A stretch of 64,000 nt of DNA from Anthopleura xanthogrammica (taxonomy: Eukaryota; Cnidaria; Anthozoa; Actiniaria; Actiniidae). The translations under genes were made by a program, and so were the position numbers. A model generated the notes under the pieces. It saw only the letters and a list, made by a program, of their open reading frames with translations, was not told where the DNA came from and did not search any database. Every line of letters starts with the position of its first letter. The first letter of the stretch is position 1. The stretch covers positions 25,242,906 through 25,306,905 of the forward strand of contig OZ025206.1 of the NCBI GenBank assembly GCA_964019055.1, in the 5' to 3' direction. This document shows, piece after piece, positions 141 to 59,579 of this stretch.

Positions 141-270
141 CTTTGATATCTCGATGAATAACTTTATTCTCGTGAAGATATTCCAGTCCTTTCAACAGCT
201 GCCAGGTGAATTTCCTCACACGTTCTTCGTCAAATCGTTGCACTTTAACCAATTCTTGGGCAATTGAACC
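141..270 (-). other. Exon 7: MAP3K-like catalytic loop
   Basis: Encodes GS at the end of the MEYMPGGS hinge region, the alpha-D/alpha-E helices and the catalytic loop LHENKVIHRDIK. The first base of the following Gly codon is before the donor at 139-140. HRDIKG is typical of STE kinases. The intron beyond it is mostly a GAT/ATG microsatellite, and the next exon is outside the window. Confidence 0.9.
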
Positions 271-3200
271 CTAAAGAACATTAGGAAATATTAGTACCCC
301 AGTCACTACCTTGACAGGTTTGCCCTTCACTCATGGTCACTCTGGCCAAACGTTTTCAAAACCCCTGGTATATTATGATTATCACTGTTAACCAAAGTAT
401 GATGTCTCATTTGCTAACTAGCATTTCGACAGCTGGCAATCAAAATCCTTTTTTTACAAACATGGCGCAGATTTCTTTTACTTTTGAGCCTTTAAATTAA
501 TTGTAAATCTTCTTATCCTCCATGGCAAACTTTGGTCATAAATATGAGGCATGTTTTTCTAAACCAATAATCATTCTCAGTATTTTGACTGATGGCCATT
601 AAAATGCTAGTTTGCAAATGAGACTTCAAGCTTCACATGTCACACTTCAACCATAATCATATGGTTATAACTAGGCTATAATTGGTGAGAATTACCATGA
701 TCTTAAAAAAAATCATAGTATGGCATAGACCAGTGACTAAAAGAAAGGAACTTACTCAACCTAATACTTTTGAGAGTTTTGCATGCAACAGATATGACAT
801 AGTAAAGTTCATATGGTTTTCACACATTAATTTCACTCAACCCAGGTGTGGATCCATGGCCAGGGGAGGGGTGCATTGGCTGTGCACCCCCTCTGGGACG
901 AATTTTTTTGCTCCTATCTTTAAGATAATCAATACAAAATAATACCTATTTCTTGTAATCTAAGGGATGCACCCCACCCTCGGCCGAATACCTGTTATTA
1001 CGGATGCATGTAAATGAGATGCAAATGAGACAACAAGCATTGCATTGTTCCAATAGCTTCACTTGTATGATTCTTAAAACAAAAGAATATCTCATTTGCA
1101 TGCATCCATAATAACATCTATTTCTGCCTCAGTCTGCTTTGCAACTTGGAAGAAATCCAACACAATGTTCGATTATTTTTTTGCTTCAGCATTTTCACCG
1201 GCAGCTGCCCCTACAATGCTGCATCCCTCCCTGAACAAAATCCTGGATCTGCCCCTGAAACCTAGTTATGTATTCACTTACCCCAGGCATATACTCCATG
1301 AATAGGTCCAGTGAATGAAGGTAGATTTCTGTTTTAAAGTATTTGATGATATAAGGATTGTCAAGAACTTGTAGTAACTTGATTTCTTTTTTGAGTGCTT
1401 CTACTCTCTGAAAAGAATTTATGAGTCACAACTGTCAGTGAATAGACCATTTTCGAGATGCAGGCATGAAAAAGAGGCATTTTCAGGCAAGATCGCGTGC
1501 ACTATTGAAGCTGCCCAAAGAGAGATCATGTCTGCGTCTGCGATATTTTTGAAAGCGCTCGCGCATCTCGAAAATGGTCTATTAGGCCATTACAGTGAAC
1601 CTGAGAAACCAGAGGTCAGTGCACTACTTGCTGTGCCACTTTTGATTCCCCAAACTAAACTTAAACTAAGAATCAAGTGGCTCTTTTTGTTTCTGTATCA
1701 CTATTTCTGCATGTCAACAGTTTTCAATAATTATTATGCACACTGAAAAGATTTCAGTGGATGAAGAGCCTCTCTAAGAAAAACCACTGCTAAATCCCAT
1801 TTACATTTTTTTGGATTTGGATTTGGATATTAATGGATCGTCCCAAGTGTTATTGGAAAACAAAGAAACTATTCTCAAGAGAATGGCATGTGATCTGTAA
1901 TGATGATGATGATGATGATTTTGCGAAAGTAGTCTGTGACATCATTTACTCAACACTAAACATTGCTCCATACATTTCTTTGTAAATAACTTCCTGATTT
2001 ATTTTATTCTTATGAAGCTCAAAGGTCGGCTGATGGACTTAACTTACATTACTTGTGATTAGAATATTTGATTTTTCCGTCTCTTTTCTTCAATACTGAG
2101 GATGAAACTAGTGGATATTTTGATCACAAAATCCAGAGAAATGTATGGGGTGATTTTTCATGTAAAAGAAAGTATCTTTTATTATAGTTTCATATATATT
2201 GGCCAGATTCAACTTTTCCTTCTGATTCTCCATAATTCTAATTACTAATTATCTTGTACCTCCTGAGTTGTCTTGTCGTTCTCTCCCAGATCAACTCTCT
2301 TGACTGCAAAATATTCTCTATTCTCTTTTTCCATTACAAGGTAAACCTGGATGTTGGAATAAACAAGACTGTTAGAAACAATTATTCACCAATTTATGAC
2401 TTTCATCTCATTTTTACAAATTTGACTAGTAAGGTTGATCAAACTTAAGGGAGGGGCTTAAGGTTCTTGGGGGGAGGGGGTTCTCTGATGTTCCCCCATC
2501 CCCACCCCACCCCTGCTGCTAACTCCATGCAAATTCCTATCCATTTTCTCATCCTTCCCAACTTGCAAAGAATAAACATGTCAAACATAGGAATCAAAAT
2601 AGTTCAAATCAAATTAAAGTGGCTTTCCAGCTGTATGAAAAACTAAGCATGGAAAGGATTGCTGTTGTTATTTGAGCGTCCCTCACCTCAGTTTTATAAG
2701 TTACATATTGCACAGAATTCGAGAAGATGGGAAGATTATGGCAAATATTTACAATAACTTTAATTTTTTAAACATCTTAGGCATTACAACTTTTTCTCTT
2801 TAAATTCTTTGCTGAAACATGTTTTTGTATCGGGAAGAGACTAGGAGCTAGGAAACATTGAAGTGCACTGTGATTGGTCAGTTTATGCATACACCAGACA
2901 CCTGGCATCAACAACATGCTCAGTATTACACAGTTTTTCAATAATATTTACCACAGTAGAGGGCAAATAAGTGATAGAAGTAACCATAATTTCCTCTTCT
3001 TTCCAAACTCTTTTTCTTTCTGGTTATAACCCCCTTCCCTAGGTTATAAGCCCATCAGAATCTCTTAGAAATGAGAACATGTTAAAGCTTAGGGTTTAGA
3101 ACCAGGATTTTATAGCATTATTCATCTACTTTATAGAAATATATGAATCAGCCAAACCTGAGCAAATCCTCCCCTTCCAAGGAGATCAGTGGTTACATAT

Positions 3201-6200
3201 TTATCTTCATCCATGACGCTGCCTGGTTTGACTTGTTTCTTGAGGTCATCTTGATCTGTTACCTGAATAGGCCTTGCCTCCAAGCTGCCATCTATTGCAA
3301 GCTCATTTTGTCTGTTTTGCTGCCCATGCGGTGGTTCTGGTTCTGTTGGTTGTTGAGGGTGTCTTGCATCAGCCATATCTGGTAGATTTTTCCCCAAATC
3401 CTGCATATTTGGGAACTGTCTTTGTCCATGCCTATCTGTGTTCTCAGTTCCAGGCCGAGTGGTGCTACCACCAACTTTATCTGGTAATGAAGTACATGGT
3501 AGTTGTTCAAAGCTGTATCTACTAATTAATGGGATCAGAAGAGAGGAGGGTAGTTAAGGGCAACATGACCAGGGGTGGACCCAGGAGAATGGTTGTTGGG
3601 GTTGCAACCCCCCTATGAAAATTTCCATCAGCTGGCTGACATTGAGAGAATGATGGCTAACTAGAATTAGGCATCATTTTTGCTATCATTGCCATCATAT
3701 ATACAACCCCCTGTTTTAAAAAAAAAAACCTGGATCCACCCCTACAGATGGGTTCAACATTTCTTGCAAACAAGCCAACAAGGGTCTATGAAATTTGCAC
3801 AGTGGACTCACATGTGGGCCCTGCATAGCAAAGGGCCACCCCACATTAGCATGTTAGACGGCGCATGCTGTCCTGAAGGCCACATCAGATATCAAACCAA
3901 CAAACAAAAAGTATCACAACAATCCACAATGTTTATCGAAGTAACAATATTTGTTGAAGAAACAATATTTGTATTATGATCATCCGGGTGGATGTAGTCC
4001 TGAGAAGTCAATCCACAATGATAAACTTATAGGCCTTACATATCAATGGAGTACAATACTTAGCACAATGAAAGCACACCTGCAGGCCTAGGCCTCAAAT
4101 TTAACTTTGCCTTTAACAAATTAAAAACAGTATCTGTTGTTATTCTAATGCTATTCTTACCTTCAACAATCTCTGCAAGATCTCTTCTCCCACATTGATT
4201 CAGTGCCCTTACCAGGACGAGTACTGTAGGTGTCTGGCTAGTTTCAGACCATTTCTTCAGCATTTCATATCCTTTGTCTTCCGTTTTTTTGTAAGTGTCA
4301 TCAATGTTACTTATAATGTGATTTGGGATCTTCAGGTGCAGGCCTAAAAACTTCCAATTTGTGCTAACTTTTTCAGCAATTGACAAGATAATATCTATAG
4401 AGACTCTTTGCTGAAATGGCTCCAACTGATTATTTGTTCTGGTTGCAGCTTCTTCTAAAAATTGAGCATTGTGAACAACTAAGAATGTAATTTAAGTTAC
4501 CCCAGTCAAGCTTTCGGCAAAGGCAAAAGTTTGAAAGGACATATATAATATACCCCATCCCTATACAACAGCAGGCACTCCCCCCCCCCCTCCATAAAAC
4601 TGTATCCCTCAATTAAATTTATACCAAATGTGAGTAGAGTTTGCTAAGTCTCTCCCTTAATTCAAGGGTTTTTCTCCAGGTTCTCAGGTTTTCCTCCCTT
4701 TGCAAAACTTGAAACACTATATGTTATTTCCAATTCAATCTGTGAGTTAGCCGTGCCCTGACTTAGAACAGCCCAGAGGTTGTTTCAGGGTTTGATCTGT
4801 GAGTTCAAAGACATGCCCTGACTTAGATCAGCCCAGAGGTTGTTTCAGGGTAACGATCTGTGAGTTCGAAGACATGCCCTGACTTAGATCAGCCTAGAGG
4901 TTGTTTTAGCATTTGATCATTCTGTGAGTTAGCCAAGTCCTGACTTTGATCAGCCCAGAGGGTTTTCACTTGTGTTGACAAAGGCTTCCTAGATACATGT
5001 ATTGACTGGCACCCACAACACAATACTTTGAGCAGTAACATAGGTCTCATGATTGAGAAATTCTAGTGCATGCCATGGTTGGCCACATTTTCAGTCAAAT
5101 AAGTAATTTGAACATTTTCAATGTTTTTTAATGATTAATTTCAAAATGATACTTACGAGTACGTGGTCGTTCTTCATACAGTGGTCTTTCTAAAAGATAA
5201 AAAATGCAATCCACATTGTTGGTTTAATAATTAGAATCAGTGAAAAACAAAGTACGCAATTTGCTAGGGTTACTTAGCAAAGAATTACAACAAGGAGGAA
5301 GGGGTTCTTATTCAGGGTATTACTGTGCGATGTGCCTAACCATGGCCACCCAATTAATTTTTAAACTTGCTCAATTATTTCAACTTGGCATGTTTTTGGT
5401 CCTTTCTGTCACAAATATAAATAAAATCTTTGCTGACACGACTTTGACCTCACATAAATTGTACAAATCCTCGTTGTAGTTGTAAAAATACTCGTAAAAA
5501 CCGGGTGGCCACGGTTAGGCGTGTTGCACAGTAAATCAAAAAGTTGGAATACTTTACAATTGAATAATCTAGGATTTATACTTTATGCATCTGACAGCTC
5601 TCCCTTCCCCCAAACCACACCTCTTAAGATAAGACTGGGTTATTTATATCCAGGGGGAGGGGGTTTGTCAGCTCCTCTGTCCATGAACAACAGTAAAAAC
5701 AGGGCTCGAAATAATTAACAGCTGGTCAACGGACAATGTCCGGCCAGAATTGGAACTTGTCTGGTCAAATATTTGCCATGCTTTGCATCCAGAAATGGGG
5801 TATGACTAAGCTTTAAACTGGTCATCATGAATGCCGACTGACTGCTGTTATTTCAAGCCCTGAAAAAGCAAACTGCCCAAAACAAAAAAGGGAGAATCAG
5901 CCAATCAGAGGCGAGATGGTGAGTAAAATGTATAATAATATGATATATTAAAACCTATATCCCGTATATATGTCTGTTTGTCCTACAAGTGCAGTTAACC
6001 AGCTCAACAGAGACTTTCACTGGCATCATGCGAAATAACTTGCTGAATAATTCACAAAATACGAGTTTGGTTAATTGTACAATTCTATGAGAGTTACAAC
6101 AAATGAATAATAAATTGCTAACATAGGCAGATCTGGAAATATGTTTAACATATTAAGCTTAGCACAAACCGAAATGTCAAAATACCAAACAAATAAATAG

Positions 6201-6481
6201 CCAATTTTTCACTTTTAAGATTAAAGTTTACCTGGTATATCAAGAAGTTTATTTCGTAAGTCATTCCTGCCGATATTGACGAGGATAACTGCCAGAAAGT
6301 CTCGGTTACTCTCGCTTAGTTTGCCCATCTTTTCCAGTTCCAAGAACAGTTCGTGAGGTCGAGTTATAAACTCTGCTCTTCCGGCTGGAATAAAGCCACT
6401 GCAAGCATATTTAAGACGCTCTAGATCGTCTGTTCTTAGTTGTTGGGCAATATCGAGGAGTAATACACGGAATGCGTTCAT
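141..6481 (-). CDS. DED + death domain + MAP3K-like kinase, 3' part off the left edge
   Basis: Seven exons join in frame: 6232-6481, 5157-5189, 4161-4454, 3158-3480, 2260-2346, 1282-1407, 141-270 (1243 nt, 414 codons plus one base). All have GT donors and AG acceptors and matching phases. Residues 1-84 are a death-effector domain ending in the RxDL motif (RNDL). About 105-192 are a death domain with the conserved core Trp and a helix-5 leucine/tryptophan pattern. A Gln/Pro-rich linker follows. The kinase starts near 287: glycine loop GRGGFAQV at 294-301, AVK lysine K316, alpha-C glutamate near E337, hinge MEYMPGGS, catalytic HRDIKG at 410-415. MEYMPGGS plus HRDIKG points to STE11/MAP3K. I chose the Met at 6479-6481 because DED homology starts there. 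DED followed by DD is the FADD layout. A catalytic kinase behind it suggests a death-receptor-type adaptor that signals directly to a MAPK cascade (inference). The activation loop, C-lobe and stop lie outside the window. Retention of the intron after the DD exon would give a FADD-like short protein. Confidence 0.88.
1443..1583. mobile_element. Foldback MITE, TA-flanked
   Basis: Ends are perfect inverted copies (TAGACCATTTTCGAGATGC and its complement) around about 100 bp of unrelated sequence. No transposase frame is present. It sits in the intron 35 bp from the kinase exon ending at 1407. Confidence 0.75.
3572..3746. mobile_element. Foldback element with GGGTGGA(C/T)CCAGG ends
   Basis: Inverted ends (AGGGGTGGACCCAGG at left, CCTGGATCCACCCCT at right) enclose about 140 bp. 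Related CAGGGGC(G/A)GATCCAGG sequence recurs at about 41270 and 56707. It lies in an intron of the DED-DD-kinase gene, between the death-domain exon and the exon that begins the kinase. Confidence 0.6.
4161..4454 (-). other. Exon 3: death domain
   Basis: The exon encodes a complete six-helix death domain. Visible are NWKFLGLHL (helix 2 Trp), an IxxID turn, LKKWSE (helix 4/5) and LVRALNQCGRRDLAEIVE (helices 5-6), in the spacing of the FADD death domain. Both splice sites are canonical and phase 1. Confidence 0.88.
4738..4975. repeat. 57-bp satellite, about 4 units
   Basis: Units run ...CTGTGAGTTAGCCGTGCCCTGA-CTTAG-TCAGCCCAGAGGTTGTTTCAGGG... with period near 57-60. It lies in an intron of the DED-DD-kinase gene. 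Same family, same orientation as 20340-20815 and reverse of 7321-7897. Each unit holds CCCTGA and TCAGGG as a possible small stem. Confidence 0.9.
6232..6481 (-). other. Exon 1: death-effector domain
   Basis: This exon encodes about 83 residues beginning MNAFRVLLLD and ending just after the GRNDL segment. The start resembles FADD helix 1 (M-x-x-FRVLL), followed by DDLERLKYAC for helix 2 and the RxDL motif near the end. It spans one whole DED. The donor after CCAG gives phase 1, which the 33-bp exon 5157-5189 accepts. Confidence 0.88.
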
Positions 6482-6648
6482 TTTGGCAAGGGAATAAAGT
6501 GGAATTCGAGTTGAATTGAAGGTAAAAAGAGTTTTCAGTTCCAAGATTCTTGTCCTGTTGAGGGTATTCCCTCTTATAACACTCCACCAGTGGACTATGG
6601 GAATGACGTCATTACACAGGTAACCCAGCACACGAAACTTCCAACTTT

Positions 6649-7288
<640 letters not shown>

Positions 7289-7320
7289 CTATCTTTATCT
7301 AAAAAACATTCAGATTTTAT

Positions 7321-7897
7321 CACAGATTGAACCCTGAAACAATCTCTAGGCTCATCTAATTCAGGGCACGGCTAACTCACAGATTGAACCCTGAAACAAC
7401 CTCTAGGCTCATCTAAGTCAGGGCACGGCTAACTCACAGATTGAACCCTGAAACAACATCTGGGCTGATCTAAGTCAGGGCACGGCTAACTCACAGATTG
7501 AACCCTGAAACAACCTCTGGGCTGATCTAAGTCAGGGCACGGCTAACTCACAGATTGAACCCTGAAACAACCTCTAGGCTCATCTAAGTCAGGGCATGGC
7601 TAACTCACAGATCAAACCCTGAAACAACCTCTGGGCTGATCTAAGTCAGGGCACGGCTAACTCACAGATTGAACCCTGAAACAACCTCTAGGCTCATCTA
7701 AGTCAGGGCACGGCTAACTCACAGATCAAACCCTGAAACAACCTCTGGGCTTATCTAAGTCAGGGCACGGCTAACTCACAGATTGAACCCTGAAACAACC
7801 TCTGGGCTGATCTAAGTCAGGGCACGGCTAACTCACAGATTGAACCCTGAAACAACCTCTAGGCTCATCTAAGTCAGGGCATGGCTAACTCACAGAT
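7321..7897. repeat. 57-bp satellite, about 10 units
   Basis: Ten head-to-tail units beginning CACAGATTGAACCCTGAAAC, very alike, with variant positions (CTAGGCTCATC versus CTGGGCTGATC; TTGAA versus TCAAA) that alternate between units. This suggests higher-order amplification. It directly follows the CTTT tract. Confidence 0.97.
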
Positions 7898-8397
7898 CGA
7901 ATTGGAATTTACTGATGTAGCTTGTAAGGCTTTACAGAGAGAGGAAAACCACGGTGAAAACCCAAACTCTACTCACATGTGATGCAAAGTTTGGGAATTG
8001 AACTGGAGACCCCAGCAATAATTATATGAGCTCCATAACGCACATAGATTTTATTCAGTGATTTTCAAAGCGAATGGTATGATAAATCTATAATCTTTTT
8101 GAACAAGTAACTGTGTAATTAATGGCTCGATCCAGTCCAGCACATATTTCATGGAATCTTTGATTCTATATATTTGATAACGCAGCTCCAAGTGAAATGT
8201 CACATGATTCGAAGCAGCACTCCTACCCCTCCCTCTCCCCCCAATTTTTCATCCCAACCCCCAAGCTATATATATATTATATACACTTTAGTGATCCCCC
8301 GCCCCATTATCCCACCACATCTAACTATCGCAGCCGCCCATTTCAGTCCCACTTCATCTGGCTTCATAAATTAGTTCAATCTAGTTAAAAAATGGTC

Positions 8398-9265: not shown

Positions 9266-12200
9266 TTAATTTTCTTCTTCTTCTTCTTCGTCTATTTCGT
9301 AGATTGTCTGTGGTATGGTTTTCTTGATTTCCATAATCTGGTCCTTCAATGGCGAAAGCGCTTGGAGATTATTTAAAAACGACCAAGGTAAATCTTCAAA
9401 GTATGAGAACGTAAATGCCCTGGAGAGCCTCTGGCTTAGACTAAGATACAAGCCTTCACGTATGACACCAGAAATAAATAACTGTCTTTGTAATCTTTTT
9501 TGTCTTAATAGAGCTATCGCTTCTTCACGCATTCGTCTTTGTTCCTCTTGAATTTTTCGTTGTTCTTCCATTATTCTTTTTTCTGCTTCTACTCGTTTTC
9601 TAAGTTCTTCTTCTTCTTGTCTCATCTTTTCTTGTAAGGCAATTCTTTCTGATTCTTCCATGGCAAGTAGTCGTTCTTCTTCTGCTCTTCGTGCGGCTTC
9701 TGCTAGCTCTGCTTCCATTTTTTCTTGCTCTTTTCTTATTTCTTCCTCTAACTTTCTTTGTGCTATAACTTCTTGTTTCTTGCGTTCAAATTCCTCGCGC
9801 ATTCTTTTATCTCTATCGAGTTTTGTGCGTTCTTCTCGCTCCTTCCTCAGCTCCTCTTCCTCATTTCTTCTCTTTTCTGCTTCTTTCTCTTCACGTTTTT
9901 TCCTGAGAAAAAAGTAAAGCATTAATATTCTGTGATATAATGTTCATTAGACAACCAATTATACTATAAAATAAACCCCTTTCAGCACGTCGAAATGTAG
10001 CTAAATTTGGAGGACAAAACAATAGGTTGTTGTGCTCTAAATTGAGCTGCTTTGACGTCATTTGAAAGGGGTCTATTAGCAATAGAAAGGTTGTGGAGCA
10101 GCACGAACATTCAAGCCCTTTTGTTATATTGTACTGATTTCAAACCATGTCGTGAAAAACTATAACCGAAGCAAAAATGAACCGAAACTAAAATTAGAAC
10201 TTGTATTCTTAAGGCACACACGAAAATAAAGAATCTAGTGCCCAGAGTAAAAGAAGGGGAAAAATGACTTACTTCATTTCTAATTCTCTTTTTTGCATTT
10301 CCTCTTCCGCTTCCTGTCTAACCCTCTCTAATCGTGCTTCCTCTTCTATCTGCTTCCGTTTAGCCTCTTCTTTTTCCCGCCTTTTTCGTTCAACTTCCTG
10401 TCTTCGTCTTTCAGCCGCTGCTGCCCTTTCTTCTGCTCTTTTTGCCGCACGAGCTTCCTTTTCTCTCTTCCTTGAGAGCTCAGCTTCATGTTGTTCTTGT
10501 TCCTTCCTCGCTTTTTCTTCGTCGACTTCAGGAACTGGCTTAGGTTCAGGCGGCTTTGGAACAAGTCTAGGTTGCTCAAAAACGGCGTTCGTGTAGTTGC
10601 TTTGAACACTATGAACACTAGGTGACTTGGCAACACTCGAATCTGACCTCTTCGACGAAGTTGCTCTTGACTCATAGTCTGATGTAGGTGAAGCAATAGA
10701 GAAGTCTTCCAAACGTTTACTCGTTTCTGAGGAAGCTCTTATGCTAGTTTCAGGTGATTTGTCAGCCATAAGCTCGACTCCATCTGTTACTTCGTCTCCA
10801 ACGGACTTCAGATCGGGAGATTTGTCTTTGGGCTTTTCTTCTTGTTTTTCTTCATCGTTCAAACTTTCCTCCTTGCTTTCTTTCGGCGCAGTTGCGCAGT
10901 TTTTGTTGTCTTCGCTCCTTTCTTGGCTGTTTTTTTACTGTCCTGTTTTTTTACTGTCCTTTTTACCTCCTGGTTTCTTAGATACTTTTCCTTTTCCTTT
11001 GGCTTCTGCAGATTGTTTATTTTCCAACCCTGCTGGAGCTTTCTCCTCGGCGGGTCTTTTGACCTGGAATGGTGGTGACTTCACCTTTTTTTTCTCATCC
11101 TTAGTAAGCGCGTCAGGTTTGACTTTAACAGTCTTTTTGCCACTGTCAGATCTAACATTGTCGCTTAAGTCAGTCACAACAGCTTGGAGAGCGGCACGGA
11201 ACTGTTCATCATCAGATTCATCTCCTTGTGCTGTCAGTGCTCGGTCCATAGTGTAATCAAATTCCTCATTTGATATCAGATTGAACATCTCCATCTGCAG
11301 ATCCGAGTTGGACATTCTTTCTGTTAGGACGGACGGTGCGTGCGCAGAAGATCCACCAGCCCTGAGTGACCTTGTTTCTTCGTCTTTCACTGGAACAAAC
11401 GAATTAATGGCATCTAAGTATGGATATGTATAAAGGCAGAAGACCATAACGATGGACTTCTGATAAAAGTTAGGTCATAAAGACAATGGAAATTACGAAA
11501 ACGAAGTGAAAAGAAAAGGAAAAAAATAGAAATAAACAAGAAAGAAAAAGAACAAGGTTGTTTCAATGGCTTATTCGAATTGGTAACCAGCAGATCCTAC
11601 GAATGGAAAATTTATTTAACCCCTCCTCAACCCCTTAATTTTGAGGCACAGACACACGGTGCAACATTGCGCGCAATATTTCAAGCAATGTTGCTAAGTA
11701 GGATCGTTTTCTACTTCAGCAACTTGCGTGCAACAAATTCTTTTTTTGACTTGTATCCATATCATTGTTCCGTGCCTTGTATGAAAACATTCAAAATTCC
11801 GTGCCGTGTCCACGCTGCGCCGTAGCCGTGCAGTGTGCCATGACTTTTCGCAGTCATACGAAATCTGCTCTATTCAAATCAGTGACATTTATCCACTTAC
11901 AAGACTCATGATAGGACTCACGTCCAACAGATATACCGCTGCTATGTTTGCTTGCAGGCTTCGAGGAGTGAGGCATACTGATTGGTGGAAGGTTCTTTAG
12001 GGACTCAATGCCAGGGAGTTCACCTAAAGGAGGCAAAAAGTATTCGTATCACCAAAAATAAGAAAGGAAATTATAAACAACAGACATGACAAGGGTTCGA
12101 TCGGCGAAATCTTAAAAACACAATGTGGCCTTCTTTGGGCGAAGATTAGGATTTGCAACCACCCCACCACCCCTCCCCAAATGAAATAGTTTATCTATGA

Positions 12201-15200
12201 TTTTGTTGGTAGACATAAAACACAAAATTTCAGCTACAAAATCCTATGCAACGCTTTTTCTATGTTAACTTTTTTCCAATCTTTGACTTTAAAGATTGCT
12301 CTTAAAGTTGTTTTAGGAAGTTTTGCCCTGTATGTTGAAATTCAAAATGAGTATGTTAATTCTGCTGGGGAGCGGTTTTTGCCCGCGCTCACGCTCGTGG
12401 GCTCAGATCGAACGTTCCAAAGTAGGCAGCCACCTTAAATTCTGGTAATCGAACCACATTCTATTAAAATAGGACTCCCTGTGGAGGCCTTTAACGACTT
12501 GGCCCATACTTGTTAAATGTTCATAACCCTCAAAATTTATCGATATCCTAAAATGCATAGCATTGACATACCTCCTGATATCATGAGAGCCTGTCTTAGA
12601 GCAGCAAGCGACGGTCCAGCTGAATAGCTGGCTTTCCTTTTCCGTCCACCATCAGCTTGAAGGCCTGCACCATTCTTGGTGGGTTGGATATTCTTCCTGT
12701 TATAAGCTGAGCTTGTACGCACATCTGTAAGTAAGTGAACGCAAAATAATTTCAACAACACAAGTGTGAGAGAGTGAATAAGGTAGCGCAACGTCTTTTT
12801 TTCCATTTGAGCGTTTTTCCATTTTTCTGCTGCTACTTGAATCCATTCTGGAGTTGGAATTTTATTTTTGAAGTTTATTTTTGCGGATCGGAGAAACATG
12901 GAAGAAAAACTCTCGAAGCACAGGAGAGAACCATCAAGTACTTTTATTCATCATATGATCTAGATGAAGGGTTCATTCTTCGAATCTATTTTAAAATGTC
13001 TGAACACTAGTGTATAATCCATAATTCTCACCGCTGCAGCTGTTTTCCCAGTGGAATTACAAACTTATCCCACAAACAACTAATATCATTCAAATATTTT
13101 TTTCCGTCATTTTGATTGGCCGAGAGCACTACAAATAACTGCCTACAAATAACGGTCTGCTCATGCGCATTACGGTACAAAGCCATTTTGCTGCAAATAA
13201 CGGACTGCTCATGCGCATTACGGTACAAAGCCATTTTGCTGCAAATAACGGACTGCTCATGCGCAGTAACGTTGCATTTGACAATGGCTCGCTTCCCTGA
13301 AAAAATGAACTGACTTCTTTGTTATTGTTTGACTCGTGCGCACTGTCCCTCAAAGATTAGAAAAAATAATTTGAATGATAATTTGAACTCGGTTATCGTA
13401 AAATATCGAGGCAAATAATTGCTTGCTCGCCACTAACAAATCACGATATTTTGCTCAACCTCGTCCAATTATTGCTTATTATCTGTTTAAAAAGTCCTAA
13501 AAGGATTACGAGGCGATCTTATTTTATTTTCACAGAACAGTAAACAATTGAAACAACTTATAATCAATTTCCGCGTAGCTCGTGTGACATAGCAACGGTA
13601 ACTAAGGGGAGTCGTAACCATGACTAATAATGCTGACTGATGCAAGAATTGAGGCGCGTTATATGCCTATTATTCGTGACCAAAACTAACCTTTCCCAGG
13701 GGGGTCCAACAGGGTAGATAATCTGTCGGCCCACATCGCTAGAGCAGCACGTGCGTCTTCCATAAACACCGCGCCAGACTGGGGTCGACTCAGAATCCGT
13801 GACGCAACGGCACGAGCCTCGTCATGAAGTTGCTCGAAGGTGATTGGTGGAGGCGGTTCAGGTGACGGCCCTTGATCTTCTATAATTGACAGAGAGCTGG
13901 TACTTCTGGAATGAACTGATCCTGGTATAGGAAACATAATACAATTGAGAATTGTCGAGGTAATGACATTCAAGGAATTTTAAAATTGATGACTTGAACA
14001 CAACATAAGTAAGCGCGGAAAGGTAAAAGCTAAAGGTAATATATTTTACTTCGATAACATCATGGGGAGTGTTTGCCCAATTCTCCCGAGCCAGGGGCTT
14101 ATGTATAAAGTGCTTGAAGTTGCGCCCTTTACCCCCTCAAACTATCAGTGCTCCTTATTACGGGTATTTAAAGCTAAAGCTACACAGAACAGAGAGAAGT
14201 CGAAACAGACGTGGAGATCCTGAGGATCGAACCGTTGATCTCCAGCTCCAATTGCGCGCACTAACCAACTGAGCTACGCCTGCTCCTAAGTCTGTCACAG
14301 TAGTGCATGGACCCCCTCACATTAGGGTAAAACATTCAGTCAACCTTAAAGCGCTATCTTCGCTTGCGCATATTGTTATACTTATACTTGCGTCACATGT
14401 GTAAACCAGGTCTATTATGCATAATGAGGTGCGGTATATGGTGCGAGAACCATTCCAAATCAACCGGAAAAAGTCTCTTCAGCTAATCAAAAAAGTAAAA
14501 CGTTACGCCAAAAATTAAGGGTTCTATTGCTTTGCGAGTAAATCCACTGCATGATTTTCATTCAATCTTACCAGCTTCAGCTTTGCTTCCTTTTGACTCT
14601 TCTTCCTGTTCAATATTCTCGTTCAATTTTCCCTTGTCTTGTCCAGCTTCTCCATCTGTTTGTGGCATGGAAAGACTCCCGTCAGATGGTTGACTCAACT
14701 CCTCCTTTATTGACCGTCCCTCGCCTTCAACATCTGCCCTCTCTTTATTTTGAACTTGTCCTTCCTCTCCACCTTGTTCTTGGTTTTCAGGTAACTTGCT
14801 ATCTTCTTGTTCACTCCCAATTTGCACATCGTTTAGATCGACGCTATCCTCTGATCTCTTGTCAACGTCTTCAAGTGGTTTCATGTCAACGTCTTCATTG
14901 TCTTCATCAATAGAACCATGAAGACTTCTCACTAATTCCATCACTTTCTTGTCTTCTTCGTCTTGGCTGTCTTCTGTAGAAATTCATTTACATAGTTAAG
15001 ATTAATACACAAACTTACTAGTACAAACTGTAAAACAAGTACGGTACACGCCGCGCCCGATGGGCGAAGTTACTGAGCTCACCCGATCAAACTGCGAGGA
15101 CAGATTCTCCATCACGATATAACGTACATTGTAGGAGTGTGAATTTGTACTCAAATATCTCCAAAATTAAAAGTCAAATTGCATTGAATGAGCATATGGT

Positions 15201-18200
15201 CTGCACCTGGGAGAAACCGTACATGCAGTTCCCACTCATGAAGACGGCATATCGTATCGTTTACCGTGCTGTAAGTCAGTACCGTACGTCTCTCACTCGT
15301 ACTGTACCCATACCGCTCTGCGGCATGTTGTATCGCGTACGTAAGTAAGTATGTACGTATGTAAGTCAGAACCGTACGTTTCCTACTCTTATAATGGAGG
15401 GGGGATGAGGTTAAAGCAATTGTCATCTAACGGGACACAATTTGGATAGTAAGGGTTAGTTACCCTGTACCCAACACCCCTGGAAGACTCCTGCAACCCC
15501 CCTCCCCCCAAAGAAAACAACAACAGAATAACTCTACATACCTGACTCCACATTAACATCAATCACTTGAGCAAGCGCGTCTCCCCATTGGCTACTTTCA
15601 TCCGACAGATTCACTTCTACGTTACTCAGATCAGCCACATCACGTGACTGCTCCTGATCACTAACCACAGAAACTCGTTCACTACCACGTGCTTCTGAAC
15701 CTGCCTCACTTTCATGTCGAATCTTGGATTCTGATTGGTTCTTTAACCCGCTTTCGCCATTCGTTACGTTAGTATCTTGAGTATACAGTTCTTCTGGTGT
15801 AGTTGGACGGGCTCCAGCAGACTGTATGGGTGGAAGCCGAGACATAGAAGTCAGCGAGGAAGATTTCAAGCTCCCTTTGCTAGATTTTTTCTTATTCGCA
15901 TTGACAGCAGAAATATTCGACTCCTTTTCAGCTGTATAAGTGTCCTCTTTGTTAAAACTCGAAGGCCAGTTTTGTAGATCAGAATCCATAGTTTCCAACG
16001 TCCTTTTCACGAGCATTTGTGAGAGCAGTTCTTCTTTTTGTTTGGAATCAAGACGAGCGTACCTACGGTCTTGTTTGGGTCTAATCGGTTCGACCTCTGA
16101 TAGTCTCTCATTCAAGGATTCAGCAGGACTGATCGCTCTAGACGAAGGGGCATATTCTTCGCTGTTTATTGATATCAAAGATGCTGCTCCAGTCGACATT
16201 CCATTATTATAAAAGTTAAATGTGCTACCGAGCATAGAACTAGATGGTGATATAGGCGGTAAAGACATAGTACTATAGGGTTGAGGTTTGTTAGGGAATA
16301 GTTCACACACGGAGCCATCTTTGTGGAGAGACGGAAGGAATGGGTTGTAGGTCTGGAGAGCAGGGTCTTTGAAGGATCCAGAAGATACTAGTTTATTCCA
16401 GGACTCTTCTTGCATGGAGCGTCCAAGGGTTGCGATGTAACGTTTAGGGGAGTACCCAGGACGAACATGGTTGTCGTAGGAACTGTTTATTCTCTTTTGA
16501 AGTAATGCTAAAAATAATGGATCTCCCTGGAACAAGATAAATGGGATGGTTAATATAATAGTAGACTAGTATGGCACTAAAGTTATCTTGCCTGACAAAT
16601 GGCAGGTATTTTGTGCATGGCAAGTGAGTTCATCGATCCTCTTGACAACATGTGGCACCGTTCATTCATTCATTCATCCACTTATCTATTCACTAGATCT
16701 TTCATTTATTTGTGCATTTCATTCACATTTTCATTTCACACTCACTCACTCACCCATCCATCCATTAATTCATCCATCCATCCATCCATCCATCCATCCA
16801 TCCCTCCCTACATCCATACATCCATTCGTCTAACCATCCCTCCATCCCACCCTCCCTCCCTCCCTCCCTACATCCCTACATCCATCCGTCCATTCTTCTA
16901 ACCATCCCTCCATCTATCCATCCTTCCATCTATTCATTCATTCATTCATGATGCATTGTACTATCCAAGTGCCAACATTGCATTATATATGCATACTTTT
17001 ACAGCAAATCATACAAATTAGAAAATATATGACAAGCCCTAATACTGATATTAGTATAGGTTTCATTAAGCATGCATGTAGGTTGCAGTAGGATGCATCT
17101 TAACTTACCCCATTTCTCTTATAGTTGAGTATAAAATCCCTCAAGTCTGTCAGTGTTTTGAGTTTAACAGAAGACTGCCTTTTGATTTTTCTTCTTCTCT
17201 TTTTAGCTTTAGGTGACCCAGGAAGAAAGTAGTCCTCGGCATAAAGCAGTAATGCACCTTTCCTGGTTGTATATGTCTTAGGCATAGAGTGAGAACCAGG
17301 TTCTTTTGTTTTTACTTTTGGCAGTTGGAATTGTTTGGTATCAAATGTTTTTTTGTAGTTTAGTTTGGAGTGCTCCATTGTTTGATATGCATTAGCAATG
17401 GGAGGTAACCGTAGATCGTCAAGGGAGAATATGTCCTACAAAAATAACAAATAGTGTTAATAATATTAGAATATTATTGAAATATGATAATGCAGGGACC
17501 GTGAAGCATAGTTTTGAGTGGGGCAGCAGGTTCTCGTGGGTCTGGGGGATGCCCACACCCCCCTTGAAAATTTTAAAATTGAGGCTCTCAGATCGAAATA
17601 CAATTTCCACTGTTGTGAGGTCCAATTGCAACTTATTTATTGCATTAAACTTGTGTCAAAGGATTAGGCAACTCATAGCAAAAAATAACAATTCAATAGG
17701 TTAGGCCCAGTTTAGACGTCGAATTTCACATGTGCCGAATCTAATGCAAATGAGCAAAACCTATAATTTGACTTCATTTGCATTACATTCGGCACATGTG
17801 AAATTCGACGTCTAAACCGGGCCTTAGATTGATGATGAATTTCATTGCCAGCTAATACTTATTCAAATAATTAGAATTTTGAATTAATGATTATACCTTA
17901 ACCTACAGTTGAAAAAAAACTACTTCAATAAAAACCTGACAATGAATGTATTGTAAACATCCTTCCAGTGCTCATATATATATATATCCTGTTTTGCAAA
18001 CAAAAGTGGAACCCAAGCAAGCGGATGGAGTCATGCTGTTGTTTACTGATCAGCAGGGATAAAAATCAGAAATTCTTTGGACTCAATCAGCATGTGGATA
18101 TGCAGGTGTATGAGAGTGGAAAAAAATATTTTGTAGCTAAAAATAATATGTCAATAGAATATTATATGCTGGGCTGAAAGATGTACGAATTATGAAAAAG

Positions 18201-23796: not shown

Positions 23797-26700
23797 TCAG
23801 CTGGGCTCTTTTTCGTATTCAATACCACTAACAGTGAAAATTGAGTCCTCTGGAAAAGAGAAGACTACATGTAGTAAATACTAGTTATACAATGTGATAA
23901 AAAGGGAAATTTTACACGGTAAAAAATAAGAAAGATCACTTACTGACGTCAGTAAGTGATCTTTCTTATTTTTTTACGGTGTAAAATTTACCTTCTTATC
24001 ACAACTGTTTCATTAGAAACACCGACGCAGCCCACACTAGCTTACCGCTAGTTATCATCTCTTTAGTTATTAAACAATGGTCTTGTGTGGCAACATTTAA
24101 TGGAATATCCAACGAGGCTAGAACGACACCGCTGCAGAACGCAATGCGCATGCGCTAAAAATTATTTGTTTTGTGAACAAACCTTGCTACCATGGCGCGA
24201 AATTCAAAAAGCCGAAGCGAATAAAGCAAAGCCGAGCGAGAAATTTTCAGAGTAGCTACAGTGTCATATATAAAATAACATACTTTTTGCACCACATAGT
24301 TTTACGTTTGCACCAAAGGTGAAAATGAAGTTTAAAGTGGGTCGCGTGCAGCCGTCGAGTACTGCTATCGCTATTTTCTTGATGTTGTTTTTACGAGTGG
24401 TAGTGGTAGTAGATGGTTCAAACAAAACTAGTATATGCATGAGGGCTGAAAAAACAAGAACAGGAAGGGCTTGCCAAGGGAGACTTTACTCTGTGAATTC
24501 GGAGATATTGAAACTCGCGCATGCGCAGACGTTCTGCAGCGGTGTCGGCTAGAACGCATTGCAAAAATCGTGCGCTTTTCAAATGATGGAAATATGTTGG
24601 AACGGGCGTCTTCAAACATACCGTATTTACTCGATTAACCGCCGAGGCGCTCTTACAATTTATAGTATTTCGGTTGCGGCGCTTATTCGGGGAAGCGCTT
24701 ATTTTAGGGCGACGCTCTTTGATATTTTGCTCTCGTATGCGACACTTAATCGGGGGCGGCGCTTAAACGAGCAAATACGGTATTACCATGGTTGGAGGAC
24801 TGACATCTAACGTTACTTCCAAAATCATGATCTCAAATCGCACGATTTTTCCAGTGACAGCGAATGAGAAAGCCCTTACCGTCGGGAATGGTATAAACTT
24901 CTTTAGGAAAGTCACTAAAATATGAATTGTGAACTGCGTTTTTAGCTGTTATCCGAAGTTTTGGATCCAACTGAAATAAATGATAAAGAATCAAGTTGAA
25001 AATGATTAGATTAAAAGACACACGGTGCAACATTGCGCGCAATATTGCCGGCAATTTTCCTGAAGTAAGATCGTTTTCTACTTCAGCAACATTGTATGCA
25101 ACAAGTTGCGTCGTTTGACACGGCTCACAACATCGATTACCTGCAACATTGCGCGCAATACACGATATGATCATGCCGTAACACTGATATAGCTTTTCTT
25201 TCTAGTTCAGGTATGACATGCATATACACAGTACGATATGTTGTAACATCTAAATGGCTTTCCATTCTTTTCGTGCGATCCATCCAATCATAACGCGTAG
25301 ATACAATTATGATAAAGCATAATTCATCTACCCCTTACTTGTATCATGAGTGACGCAAACTTCTCAGCACCGTCTATTCCAATTAACCTGAATGACAAAA
25401 ACGAAACTGTCATATGAAGAGTCGAAAACGAATTCAATAAATTTGGTTTCATGAGTTATTTACCTTGGCACGACGTACCCAAGCCGTTGGGGCGGATATT
25501 CAAGAAAAGTATCTGAGGAAAAAACCCAACATAAATATTGTATAAAACTGCATAGAGGATAAAGATGCGTTAATACGAGCAACAAAATCGTGCAACTTTG
25601 TTGCGTTGTTGCGTTGCAAGTTGCAGAGCGAATATCGCTCGTATTACCACCCCGCGCGTAACAAAATGTCTTTGTTGCAGCGAGTAGAAAGAGCATCTTC
25701 TTCTGCAACAAAGTCGCGCGACAAAGTTTTCTTGTTGCACGGGGTGGTAATACGAGCCATATTCACTGTAATTTGCAACACAACAATGTTGCGCGACAAG
25801 TTGCACGATTTTGTTACTCGTATAACTGCACTTTAAGTCAACTGGGAGCCAGCAATTTATGCATGGAATTGTGGGGCTTGATGGCTCTACTATCTTACAT
25901 CACTTATATTACCCACATAATTCCATGCTCTGGAACCAGAGAACCCAGAAAATAAACCTTGAATCAAGGGAGAGACCTTACCATCTCCGTGTGGGGCTCG
26001 ATGGATCTGCTATCTTACGTCACTCATATTAGCCACATAATTCCATGCTCTGGAACCAGAGAACCCAGAAAATAAACCTTGAATCAAGGGAGATACCTAA
26101 CCAACACCATGTGGGGCTCGATGGATCTGCTATCTTACATCACTCATATTAGCCACATAATCTCATGCTCTGGAACCAGAGAACCCAGAAAATAAACCTT
26201 GAATCAAGGGAGATACCTAACCAACACCATGTGGGGATTGATGGCTCTACTATCTTACATCACTCATTTAGCCACACAATCTCATGCTCTGGAACCATAG
26301 AACCCAGTAAATAAACCTTGAATCAAGGGAGATACCTAACCAACACCATGTGGGGCTTGATGGCTCTACTATCTTACATCACTCATTTAGCCACACAATC
26401 TCATGCTCTGGAACCATAGAACCCAGTAAATAAACCTTGAATCAAGGGAGAGACCCAACCAACTCCGTTCACATATGATGGCAACATCGAACCTGAGATC
26501 CAATAGGTGAGAAGCGAGTGCATAGTGCCCTCCTTGATTATCAAATAGCATGTCACTTCACTTACCAATATTATATTCTGAATGTTTGCTGACGCCAGGC
26601 CAAGTTTCGTTTGTCGGTGTACCAAGAACCTTGAAGCAAAGAACAGACAAGTCAATAAGATGCAGGATGGCGTAACTTCAACTCCTATATCAATACTGGG

Positions 26701-29700
26701 AATCGCCTCCTTGTTTTACGAGGGAAGCACTTAACAACCAGTGGCTAACAAACCTGTGGTACTCATTCCATGATCAAATTGTTACCGGCTTAGAAGTTGA
26801 TTTTTGCGGAGAGAAGAAAACAGGAGAACCCAGAGAAAAACCCTCGAAGCACAGGAGAGAACCAACAAACAACTCTATTCACATACGACACCGAGCCCTT
26901 CGGGACTCGAACCCACGACGCACGAGCGAATTCACCGATAACCTGCGCTACTTTCCGTGCAATCAAAGGATAGGGTAGAATAACATTACTATTGTAAGAG
27001 AAATATGTTAGACAGGCCTGTTATACCTGCCATATCTTGTTCAGCTGATCGATGTGGTCTTTAAGTCCAGGGAAAAGAGCCACGCCTGTTATCATTTCAA
27101 CGAAGATGCATCCCGCTGCCCTAGAAGGAAACACCAAGAAAAAGATAAAACTAGTCATTCAACAAGAATTGTACAAAATCTGCGCATTAATGTTATTACT
27201 CCAAATCTTCAAAACACATCAACTCACAAAAAACTTTGTCATATTTCCCCCGCTTTTTTTCATTTTTTTCCCCAGTAGACGCGTGTACTATTTACCGGAA
27301 GTCGACATTTCCCGCCAAAAGTTTCATAAGTCCGAGTTACACGTTACGCGTACGATACATCGGCCCGATTTTTGATAAGCTTCGTTCGGGAAGAGGAAAA
27401 GAAAGAAATCGGTCCGATTTGGAAAAATCTATTGCACGGACCAATTTTTAGAAAGGAACTCAGTGCAAATGAATTGGAGTGATAAAACAACCGAGGAGAA
27501 CTCAAATCGGGCCGACAAATCGTAGCGTGTAGCTCGAACTTTACAATCTATAGCAAGCAAATTTAATACCGGACAGAATTTCAAATATTTGAAAGAAAAC
27601 TGAATATATTCACCATATATCCAAAGATGTCGTGTAATCTTTCGACCCTAGCAGAACATCAGGAGGACGATACCTGGATAAAGAAATCATCGTAAGATAA
27701 AAAAATTATATAAAGATAAAATGTCCAGTGAACAAGGAATCCATTCTGATAGGATGGTATTTGGATGGATGGCTTGGACTGGAAGCCATTTCAGCTATAG
27801 ACAATCCGCGACTTATGTAACCTTTACATTAGCAGTCGATCTTATTCAGTCTTTTCATAAGGTTCCAAGAGAGAGGAAAATAACTTGAGAAGACTCTGTA
27901 ACGTTTGGAGGATTTATTTGTCGCACATACTCTATGCATATATTCCTAATATCTATAAGTCCCATCAGAAATAAAATAAATAAATAGAATTTAGCAGTGA
28001 CATTTCCACAGAGTGGCTCTTCATCCAGAAGTTGTTGTTTTTTGTTTTTGTTTTTTGCGCAGAAAGGAAAGCCGGAGAAAAATCCTCGAAGCACAGGAGA
28101 GAACCAGCAAGCAACTCTACACACATACGACACCGAGCCAGGCGGGACTCGGACCCGGGTCGCATTGGTGCATGAAAGGCGAGCGTCATCAGCGATTAAC
28201 GAGTTCTATTTCTCCATGCCCCCCCCCCCAAAAAAGTAAATTTTTACCATAGAGTGACGACTTCGTTTGAGTACGTCCGACTTGGTACTGACTTGGCTCG
28301 TGCCAAACCTGTCACGAAACAACCAATGGGTTAGTAGGCGAGTTAGTGAGAAATACGAGCAACAAAATCATACAACTTGTCACTCTACATTGTTGCGTTA
28401 CAAGTTGCAGAGTGAATGTTGGCTCTACTTCTGCAACTGTCAAAGTCGAGCAACAAAATTTTGTTGTTGCATGGGGTGGTAATACGAGCAGCATTCACAC
28501 AAGCAAGTTGCACGATTTTGTTGCTCGTATTTCTGCACCTTAATTAGTGAGTGGGTTAGTAAATAAATGAAAGCATCGTGACTAAATTTACAGTTTTATG
28601 GAAGTCTAGAGTCAATTGTCTGATAAAACACATTAACCTTAAGCCTTAATCGTTTCCTATCCCTTATTCATATGTCGTTTTATCTGAATGTACAATCTAA
28701 AACAACTAACACTTCCTGTTAATCCAAGTCAAGTGCGTTAACTTCAATCTACTTGACTCGGTCATTTTTAGCTAAACAGATCCAAATATGTCTCATAATA
28801 GACCCTTTTCAAATATGGCGTCTATGACGTCAAACGAGGAGAATGAGAATGTCCCGGATGTCGAAATGCAATGATTTCTACTAGCAGCATTCGGGACTGG
28901 AATGCCCCGGATTTCAAAACACATGCAATCATTATCACTCATGACATCCGGGACATTCCCGAACTCCTCGTTTGACGTCATAGACGCCATAATCGAAAAG
29001 GGTCTATTGAAGAGGAACTCACCGAAGTCTGCTAATTTGAGTTCTCCTTTTTCGCTTATTAGTAGATTTTGTGGTTTGATATCTCTGTTGAGAGAAAAAA
29101 CGCGAGTATCAGTATTAGCTCCATAAACCATGGAAATGAAAACGCTTGTTTTGGCGAGCGAATATGTGCGCACGTTGGGAAAATAACGAAGAAGCTGCGA
29201 CCACTTGCCGAGGCTTTCCCGAAGAAAACAAATTGATTTGCTCTCTTTTGCTCTTAACAAGTTCTTAGCATGCCAAATTTCCTTAGTAACAAAGACAACT
29301 TCTAAATATTGAAATCTTTTAAATATTTCGAAGCGCTTCTGCCATTTTTTTCCCGCCTGTTTTCCGGACATGCGCAGGAACTGTTATCGTGTATCTGTTA
29401 CCTGTGGAGAATTTTTCGCTGGTGAATGTACGCCAAGCCTCGTAAGAGTTGAAAGATAAATACCTAGAGGATCAAATAAATACAACATAAATAAATTTAT
29501 AAGCTATTCGATTGGATTTTCTTTGCGGGGAATATAACAAGGATAATAATTGAGTCTGTATTCTTACCAGACGATCGAGTAAGATAAATACAATAATAAC
29601 ATGAAATTCTGTGGGGGAAAAATACTTATACACGATGATTATACAGTGTGGATTTCCGTGCTTCCTAGATTGAAATAACTTCTGGTAAACAGGATTTTCC

Positions 29701-48024: not shown

Positions 48025-48831
48025 CCCTACTTTCTTATGATTGCGTAATACGGACTTTTTTATATTTTTTGCCATTTCAGACCAGATACGCAATTTTAAC
48101 ATAAACAATTTCCTGAGGATTGGGGGGGGGGGGGGGGGGAATGTGGAAAGATGTTTTTAGGGGGAGGGGGCTGTGATGGAAATTCATCCAATTGATATGC
48201 GCACATGGTAAATAATGTACGAATGCGCTAAGCAAACTTCGGTACAGGGTTTCTACTTAGTTCTTGTGCATTTTAACGGATAGCGCAGCATCAAAGCACA
48301 GCCAACTACCCATAAAGCCCCACGAGGCGCCCGTATGGCATGGTGACCTATGCACAGGGATCCCAATCGTCAAGATTACTGTCGCTGCTCGATACGCTCG
48401 CAGCAAAAATATTTTGGAAAAGGTCTTGGACATGACATTAGTAATCCCACAAGAGTTTTTAAAATAAATGAACTCCTAATTTTTTTTCCATCCAGTAACA
48501 GTCACGTGATTGCTTCCTGCAAAAGGCATATTCCGCCTTTTGGAGCATAAATATAGAAGAGCCATATGTTCTAAAGGATGTACACGTAAGTATGTGTAGC
48601 GTATGACCCACATTCCATGCATTCCTCAGAACACGCAAGGATACCATTTCACTCCATGACGTTCCCCATATCGTAGACTTGAATCCGAACGAACGTGCTT
48701 GGCCGCATTGCTAATTCTGCTTGCAAGGCGATACAGTCAATTGTTGTCTCTTAGAAGGATTTAGTTGACGTTTGATTTGTCTCTCACAAAACGAAGTTCA
48801 GTGAAGTGTTGAAGACTGATATTTCTTCAGA

Positions 48832-49368
48832 ATGAGTGTACCACGAGAGCTGAGTCTGTTGTTGATGGCTGCCGTCATGCTGGCTTATTTACAGCCTTGT
48901 TCTTGTTTACCGTTGAAGAAGCAGTGTGAACCAGTTACCATACCGTTGTGTACGGGTTTACCGTATAACACTACTATATTCCCTAACATGATAAAGCACA
49001 AAACTCAAGAGGAAGCTGGCTTAGAAGTTCATCAGTTCTACCCTCTCATCAAAGTGGATTGCTCCAGTGATCTAGCTTTCTTTCTATGCTCTGTGTATGC
49101 CCCAGTCTGCACAGTTTTAGAGACTCCCTTGCCGCCTTGCCGATCTTTGTGCGAGAGTGCTCGGAATGGCTGTGAAAAGTTAATGACTAGAATTGGATTT
49201 ACTTGGCCTGAATCACTTGAATGTAAGAAATTCCCTGTATTTGGAGACAAGATCTGTGTAGGAGAAACGGACACCGAGGAACTGAGGCCGACAGAAGAAG
49301 GGAATACGAATAATAGCTATCCTGAAGTAGACAGGAGTACGACTGATGAAACATGGCTGAATAGCTGA
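48832..49368 (+). CDS. Truncated frizzled duplicate: signal peptide plus CRD only
   Basis: A 178-aa open frame, nearly identical to the first 168 residues of the intact frizzled at 59580. It keeps the hydrophobic signal peptide (with two extra residues, SC) and a CRD with all ten cysteines. It then leaves the parent after DRST and ends ten codons later in junction filler (TDETWLNS, stop). It has no membrane segments. About 180 bp of leader upstream of the ATG match the parent, but a further 930 bp of parental upstream DNA are missing. If expressed, the product would be a secreted Wnt-binding CRD, like an sFRP without the netrin-like domain. Differences from the parent are about nine amino-acid changes against about four silent ones, clustered at the end of the CRD, which fits relaxed constraint. 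It may be a pseudogene. Confidence 0.6.
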
Positions 49369-58461: not shown

Positions 58462-59579
58462 GTCACAAGGTTGTGTAACAGAATTGTAAAAGCACTAAAG
58501 AAATAATAACACAATGAATATTGGTTTTCATTTAGTAGTAGTAGGAGTGTTTTAAAAACATACAGAGCCACAGCTACGCCACACTTACAATGTTTGGTGC
58601 AACAGTTTTGGTTTAGAGTATTTAGGGATCAATAAGCGACTCGTCAGTGTCAGAGCAGTGGCTAGAAATGATAAGAAAGCCAGATAAAATGGACTAAAAC
58701 CGACTTGGACGAGATAATTTAATTTCGATTTCGCACGTGAAGTGTTCCGTTTTGTTTTTGTTCAATCTGTTTTCTTAATGAAACGCCAAGGGAGTTCGTG
58801 CGACTCCATCCGAAGAAACACTGAATGATTTAATTAAAAAATACGCTTAGAAAAGCAGATCCATAATTCCCAAACAGTTATTTCAAATACAAATCAAGAA
58901 TATTCTAGCCCTACTACCTTAGTCTAAACGAATTACAAGTTATGTTAAATTAATTATCAAAATCGAAGGCGAAAAGAGGGGTCTGTTTGTTATGAATTCG
59001 TGAGCGATTGTTTATAAAATCAAATGCCTTTCTTATCAGTCTTAACCGGCGGAAAAACACATTCCAGCCGATAGCAACAAAAGAAGGCTCGCAGTTGGCA
59101 ACCAAGCTCCTTGAATCGACGCCTCGCATGTTGCGGCTTCTCATTACAAAAGAACAGTATGGGGGAATCTGTATAATGAACTTTCCATCTGCTTACAGAC
59201 GAACAATTTTCTTTTTCTTGGGTTTGTGATCATCAATGATTTCGAACTGACCAATGACGGTCTAATGTGATAGCCCGCGGAATGGCCCCTCGCCTTTGTA
59301 CTTCCGGTAAATCTTCACACCTGAATGTTGTTTTCTTCGTAATTAGAGTTCCTTTCATGATATGGACCAATCAGATCACGTCTTGATTTCCTCCATGACG
59401 TTTCCCATATCGTAGACCAATCAACGAACGTGCTCGGCCGCATTGCTAATTTTGCTTGCAAGGCGATACAGTCAAGTGTTGTCTCTGTCATGGCAGCGTA
59501 AGAAGGATTTAGTTGATGTTTGATTTGTCTCTCACAAAACGAAGTTTAGTGAAGTGTTGAAGACTGATATTTCTTTAGG
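58462..59579. promoter_or_regulatory. Upstream region of intact frizzled
   Basis: About 930 bp (58462-59390) have no counterpart in copy A; the last 190 bp before the ATG do. The split marks a likely leader/proximal promoter (shared) and a distal part lost by the truncated copy. No specific factor sites are claimed. Confidence 0.35.

Follow-up and report, generated by a model that had tools for sequence, protein, structure and literature searches.

A predicted sea anemone protein joining a FADD-like DED and death domain to a MEKK-like kinase

The left end of a 64,000-nucleotide stretch of Anthopleura xanthogrammica DNA (contig OZ025206.1, positions 25,242,906 to 25,306,905, hereafter the window) raises the question of whether a DED, a death domain (DD) and a protein kinase, encoded one after the other on the minus strand, are parts of one polypeptide, and what such a polypeptide would do. 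FADD attaches to the DDs of receptors and brings in DED caspases, and to our knowledge it has no enzyme domain. RIPK1 has its kinase first and its DD last, without a DED, IRAK has a DD followed by a kinase, and MEKK2/3 bear an N-terminal PB1 domain.

Seven exons with canonical splice sites and matching phases had been described in the initial annotation, and all seven were found when the window DNA was spliced. Running from 6481 to 141 on the minus strand, they join in phase to give 414 codons, with AG before exons 2-7, GT after all seven and exon 1 opening at its own ATG. Exon start phases (0, 1, 1, 1, 0, 0, 0) agree with the lengths of 250, 33, 294, 323, 87, 126 and 130 nt, and the DED lies within exon 1 and the DD within exon 3. 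The exons are listed with their matches to a predicted protein of Actinia tenebrosa (P0001) and to two single-domain database proteins (P0010 and P0011).

Exon 1, 6232..6481, minus strand: start codon (6481-6479) and DED; 87% identity to Actinia P0001 over 83 residues; exon-level match to P0011.
Exon 2, 5157..5189, minus strand: 33-nt linker exon, phase 1-1; aligned here with Actinia residues 84-95, 10/12 identical, tblastn E 0.43.
Exon 3, 4161..4454, minus strand: death domain, symmetric phase 1-1, 294 nt; 76% identity to Actinia over 99 residues and 87% to P0010.
Exon 4, 3158..3480, minus strand: linker and start of the kinase N-lobe (glycine loop from 3178); blocks GQRQFPNM and ARPIQVTD conserved in Actinia.
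Exon 5, 2260..2346, minus strand: kinase N-lobe with the AVK lysine (FAVKRV codons 2310-2293).
Exon 6, 1282..1407, minus strand: kinase alpha-C region (KEI) and hinge (MEYMPG).
Exon 7, 141..270, minus strand: kinase as far as HRDIK (156-142), the frame running past the window edge; 73% identity to Actinia over 44 residues.

Chance assembly of these exons was ruled out by the domain E-values and by tblastn of the Actinia protein, both given below.

Several repeats and short motifs were recorded around the gene. A 157-copy CTTT array lies about 160 bp upstream of the start codon and adjoins a 57-bp minisatellite (6645-7286, 7320-7901), and an array of period 61 in intron 2 (4738-4968) has a unit similar to that minisatellite. 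The ATF/CRE-like octamer TGACGTCA is found at 6604-6611, about 125 bp upstream of the start codon. It occurs six times in the window (there and in five other places) against 0.69 expected in shuffles, so it is not peculiar to the DED gene, and the idea of feedback regulation through it was dropped. The kappa-B-like sites upstream of the start are among 115 window matches (with at most 1 mismatch), against 90 expected. Further upstream on the same strand (9266-16565), long charged coiled-coil and low-complexity frames were seen; the three that were scanned (9266-9943, 12537-12947 and 15534-16565, minus strand) had no Pfam match to E 0.01.

In the translated product, the DED (PF01335, residues 4-81, E 2.8e-21), the death domain (residues 119-194, E 1.8e-12) and Pkinase (residues 287-414, E 3.6e-29) each exceeded the Pfam gathering cut-off. 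The Pkinase match is limited to profile positions 1-125 of 263, the gene extending past the left edge of the window. The kinase motifs comprise the glycine loop (294-301), FAVKRV (313-318) with the AVK lysine, the KEI region (335-341) and HRDIK (410-414); the gene leaves the window just after HRDIK, and the DFG motif and C-lobe are absent from the window. The earlier description of a DED, a DD and a kinase therefore stands as to domain order, glycine loop, AVK lysine and HRD, whereas the kinase itself is incomplete in the window and is known in full from the Actinia relative only. The DD also gave a weak Pfam match, below cut-off, to the bacterial death-like domain bDLD3 (E 0.082).

P0001, 544 aa long, is predicted from a 345-kb contig and annotated by NCBI only as 'MAP3K3-like'. 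It aligns across all 414 window residues (68% identity in BLASTP at 100% query coverage, 72% in a MAFFT alignment) and then carries on to a complete kinase, so that DED, DD and kinase are all present. When P0001 was searched against the window by tblastn, six exons were recovered in order, each at E 3.1e-5 or better; the match to exon 2 was weaker than an off-gene match at 29460-29401 (E 0.013), and the other off-gene match had E 0.91. By region, identity to Actinia was 72/83 (87%) in the DED, 21/28 (75%) in the first linker, 65/83 (78%) in the DD, 42/74 aligned residues (57%, gapped) in the second linker and 85/129 (66%) in the kinase half. The DED-DD-kinase order is thus, as far as the sequences go, not peculiar to the window, and is kept in the predicted protein of a sea anemone. 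Outside the window, the three-domain linkage is carried by this single predicted protein.

Other database searches returned fewer domains. In the homologue search, 7365 candidates were reduced to 9 at E 0.001, one of them with DED and Death; P0001 residues 1-200 as the query retrieved P0001 itself only, out of 1435 candidates, and a search with a DED-DD profile left, out of 4420 candidates, three pieces of one domain each. NCBIfam gave 19 matches on P0001, none at the cut-off. Both P0011 (DED) and P0010 (DD) match a single domain and continue into sequence that resembles the window's intron or 5' sequence, as if one exon had been translated straight from genomic DNA; this suggests that DED and DD exons are present in related genomes, and is no proof of linkage to a kinase. 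A separate DED, P0012, is 62% identical to that of the window and has caspase-8 and PEA-15 as its best solved matches, ahead of FADD; it may be a separate or paralogous FADD, or else only distantly related. Cnidarian proteins may be scarce in the database, and the missing full-length relatives are therefore weak evidence.

The initial annotation had named two adjacent genes, recognisable by a separate start for the kinase, as the finding that would overturn the fusion. The strongest evidence for one gene is the alignment of P0001 over all 414 residues. A FADD gene and a MAP3K gene misjoined both in the window and in the Actinia gene prediction could produce the same alignment, the Actinia protein being itself a prediction, and we consider this very unlikely. 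Two unfused genes could also have stayed neighbours, and a kinase gene of its own might begin with a non-coding exon. Translation past the end of the DD exon would gain 33 residues before a stop, giving a product the size of FADD. Immediately around the exon 3/4 junction, moreover, a few residues are poorly conserved and gapped against Actinia. The surrounding sequence argues the other way: followed upstream from exon 4, the frame reaches a stop at 3556 without passing an ATG (ATGs inside exon 4 are at 3406, 3376 and 3214), and intron 3, 680 nt long, contains neither AATAAA nor ATTAAA. The phase is kept from exon 3 to exon 4, and of the two blocks kept in Actinia on the kinase side of the junction, GQRQFPNM and ARPIQVTD, the first has its GQRQFPN ahead of the first possible Met. 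Two genes are thus disfavoured by the missing start, the missing poly-A hexamers and the conserved linker, with the junction residues as the exception, and a single DED-DD-kinase gene is the likely reading.

One gene might nevertheless give two products, namely a short DED-DD isoform, through intron 3 retention or an alternative ending, and the long kinase form, with exons 2 and 3 perhaps skipped to yield a DED-kinase. The layout would permit it, exons 2 and 3 being multiples of three with phase 1 borders and intron 3 staying open for 33 codons beyond exon 3. We regard it as unlikely; neither of the two poly-A hexamers searched is present in that intron.

The DED-DD part was compared with solved structures using residues 1-197. 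FADD came first (E 2.4e-10), in one alignment passing through both domains (query 3-193 to FADD 3-179, collinear), and ahead of caspase-8, PEA-15 and RIPK1 among 41 distinct sequences to E 0.1. This collinear best match over both domains agrees with the FADD-like adaptor first proposed. DED residues D19, R72, D74 and L75 align ungapped to E19, R72, D74 and L75 of FADD, positions which we take to be the DED charge triad/RxDL motif. The DD exon alone gave 27.2 bits for RIPK1, 26.3 for PIDD and 25.7 for FADD, which is no real difference. The protein shares with FADD an N-terminal DED followed by a DD; unlike FADD it adds a linker and an in-frame kinase, found also in Actinia, and so is more than a DED-DD protein; the FADD chains with both domains among the solved matches are 191-216 residues in length. 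Like RIPK1, it combines a DD with a Ser/Thr kinase, but both the window protein and P0001 have the DD before the kinase, and the best match of the kinase is MEKK2.

For the kinase of P0001, the best 60 of 595 matches to 1e-20 were headed by MEKK2 (169.8 bits), with STK25 at 143.8, ASK1 at 136.6 and PAK1 at 126.3 bits; the window kinase, represented by its N-half only, gave 79.6 bits for MEKK2 against 73.7 for STK25, a small lead of 6 bits. An AF2 model of P0001 (mean pLDDT 68, pTM 0.50) has six helices in each death-fold region and a kinase fold, with weak confidence in the DD (pLDDT 53-69 in P0001; mean 47 for the DD exon alone). In a Foldseek search with the Actinia model, MEKK2 was first at 36% identity among the 50 matches listed, all of them kinases, so the search carries no information on the DED or DD. 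The MEKK-group assignment made earlier is in keeping with these results, MEKK2 being the best match by sequence and by fold in a best-match ranking made without a tree. By the same ranking, the kinase would fall in the STE group, nearest to MEKK2 among solved kinases, a set that may lack other MEKKs.

Two known kinase families come close in other respects. MEKK2 (of MEKK2/MEKK3, MAP3K2/3) has the closest solved kinase domain, and NCBI calls the Actinia protein MAP3K3-like; the difference is that no PB1 was found among Pfam matches to E 1 in the window protein or in P0001, which have a DED and a DD instead. IRAK/Pelle share a DD N-terminal to the kinase, whereas the window protein has an extra DED, and no IRAK was among the best 60 of 595 kinase matches.

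MAP3Ks commonly activate when they are brought together. We think it probable that a single anthozoan gene encodes a FADD-type adaptor (DED and DD) with a C-terminal MEKK2/3-like, STE11-type kinase, and that the protein would couple DD receptors to MAPK signalling by proximity. We infer recruitment, proximity activation, a MAP2K substrate and a role in death or immunity, as follows. The DD would be drawn to clustered DD-bearing receptors or adaptors, and the DED would join, seed or cap DED assemblies with caspase-8-like proteins. Crowding would gather the kinase domains, which could then be activated by trans-phosphorylation, and the activated kinase would phosphorylate a MAP2K. One polypeptide would thereby do the job that FADD and a RIPK1/TAK1-type kinase do in other animals. 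The link that the initial annotation put forward, from a death receptor or caspase-8-like DED filament to JNK/p38, would be of this kind.

In vertebrates, separate proteins (TRADD, RIPK1 and FADD) serve the step from receptor to kinase, according to part of the text of PMC8195603. In flies, TAK1 acts downstream of IMD in a pathway that also uses FADD, and fly STING signals through FADD without need of TAK1 (both from passages of PMC13144350); a FADD-type protein therefore need not act through a MAP3K.

The kinase could instead be a scaffold or negative regulator, the protein then acting on the DED pathway as a decoy in the manner of c-FLIP. Identity to Actinia is lower in the kinase half (66%) than in the DED (87%) and the DD (78%), and the Actinia activation segment reads DFGIS and ASVFWTSPE where MEKK2 has DFGAS and GTPYWMSPE. 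The catalytic motifs, however, are intact (glycine loop, AVK and HRDIK in the window, HRDIKGRN and DFG in Actinia), and we consider a decoy distinctly unlikely. An active kinase remains the preferred reading. As a more tentative extension, which we rate as possible but somewhat doubtful, the gene would be an anthozoan one-protein relay from receptor DD to DED assembly to MAP3K that replaces a missing RIPK1/TRADD or IRAK branch, one molecule choosing between caspase-8 death and MAPK signalling.

The initial annotation knew of no described protein with this domain order. This fits the literature searched: no description of a DED-DD-kinase was found by full-text search, six literal names of the architecture returned 0 papers, and the portions available of PMC2575513, PMC6019070, PMC2246300 and PMC7586219, like those of the papers cited elsewhere in this text, do not describe it. 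The architecture is, however, already in public databases, where it went unremarked. The combination joins known kinds, a FADD-like adaptor and a MEKK-like kinase, and is present there as an unremarked prediction.

The rest of the window holds the following frames.

59568-61211, plus strand: 547-codon open frame carrying Fz and Frizzled domains.
48820-49368, plus strand, about 11 kb from the Frizzled frame: partial copy with Fz only, 93% identity across some 700 bp, which ends shortly after the domain; either a decoy-like Fz protein or a pseudogene.
28793-29383, minus strand: frame with a piece of kinase catalytic loop (Pkinase E 2.8e-6, below the Pfam cut-off), presumably CDK14/PCTAIRE-like.
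24833-25201, minus strand: frame perhaps resembling the end of a CDK14/PCTAIRE-like kinase, with no Pfam match to E 0.01.

Among cnidarians, fusions of this general kind have precedents. DED fusions to TRADD-N are described in part of PMC8195603, and the actiniarian 'novel gene 3' is, like the present gene, a cnidarian kinase fused to a DD, but it has TIR and Roc/COR, and no DED is listed for it in the section of PMC5094078 consulted. The DED-TRADD-N fusions and the actiniarian kinase-DD-TIR gene indicate that such fusions occur in the phylum. In excerpts of a review (PMC10492769), the origin of RIPKs is placed in the chordate ancestor and the RIPK-like proteins of other invertebrates are doubted, and the closest cnidarian IRAK-like kinases are reported to be without a DD in part of PMC6321704. 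With RIPKs dating from the chordate ancestor and cnidarian IRAK-like kinases lacking a DD, a DED-DD-kinase protein could fill the role of a DD kinase. Caspase-8 and FADD of Acropora interact, according to a passage of PMC4715348, and corals have DD-bearing TNFRs whose DD partners 'should be determined', in the words of a passage of PMC4979521. The protein described here, FADD-like and equipped with a MAP3K-like kinase, is a concrete candidate for such a partner, and may act as a switch that leads from death receptors to stress signalling in a single step.
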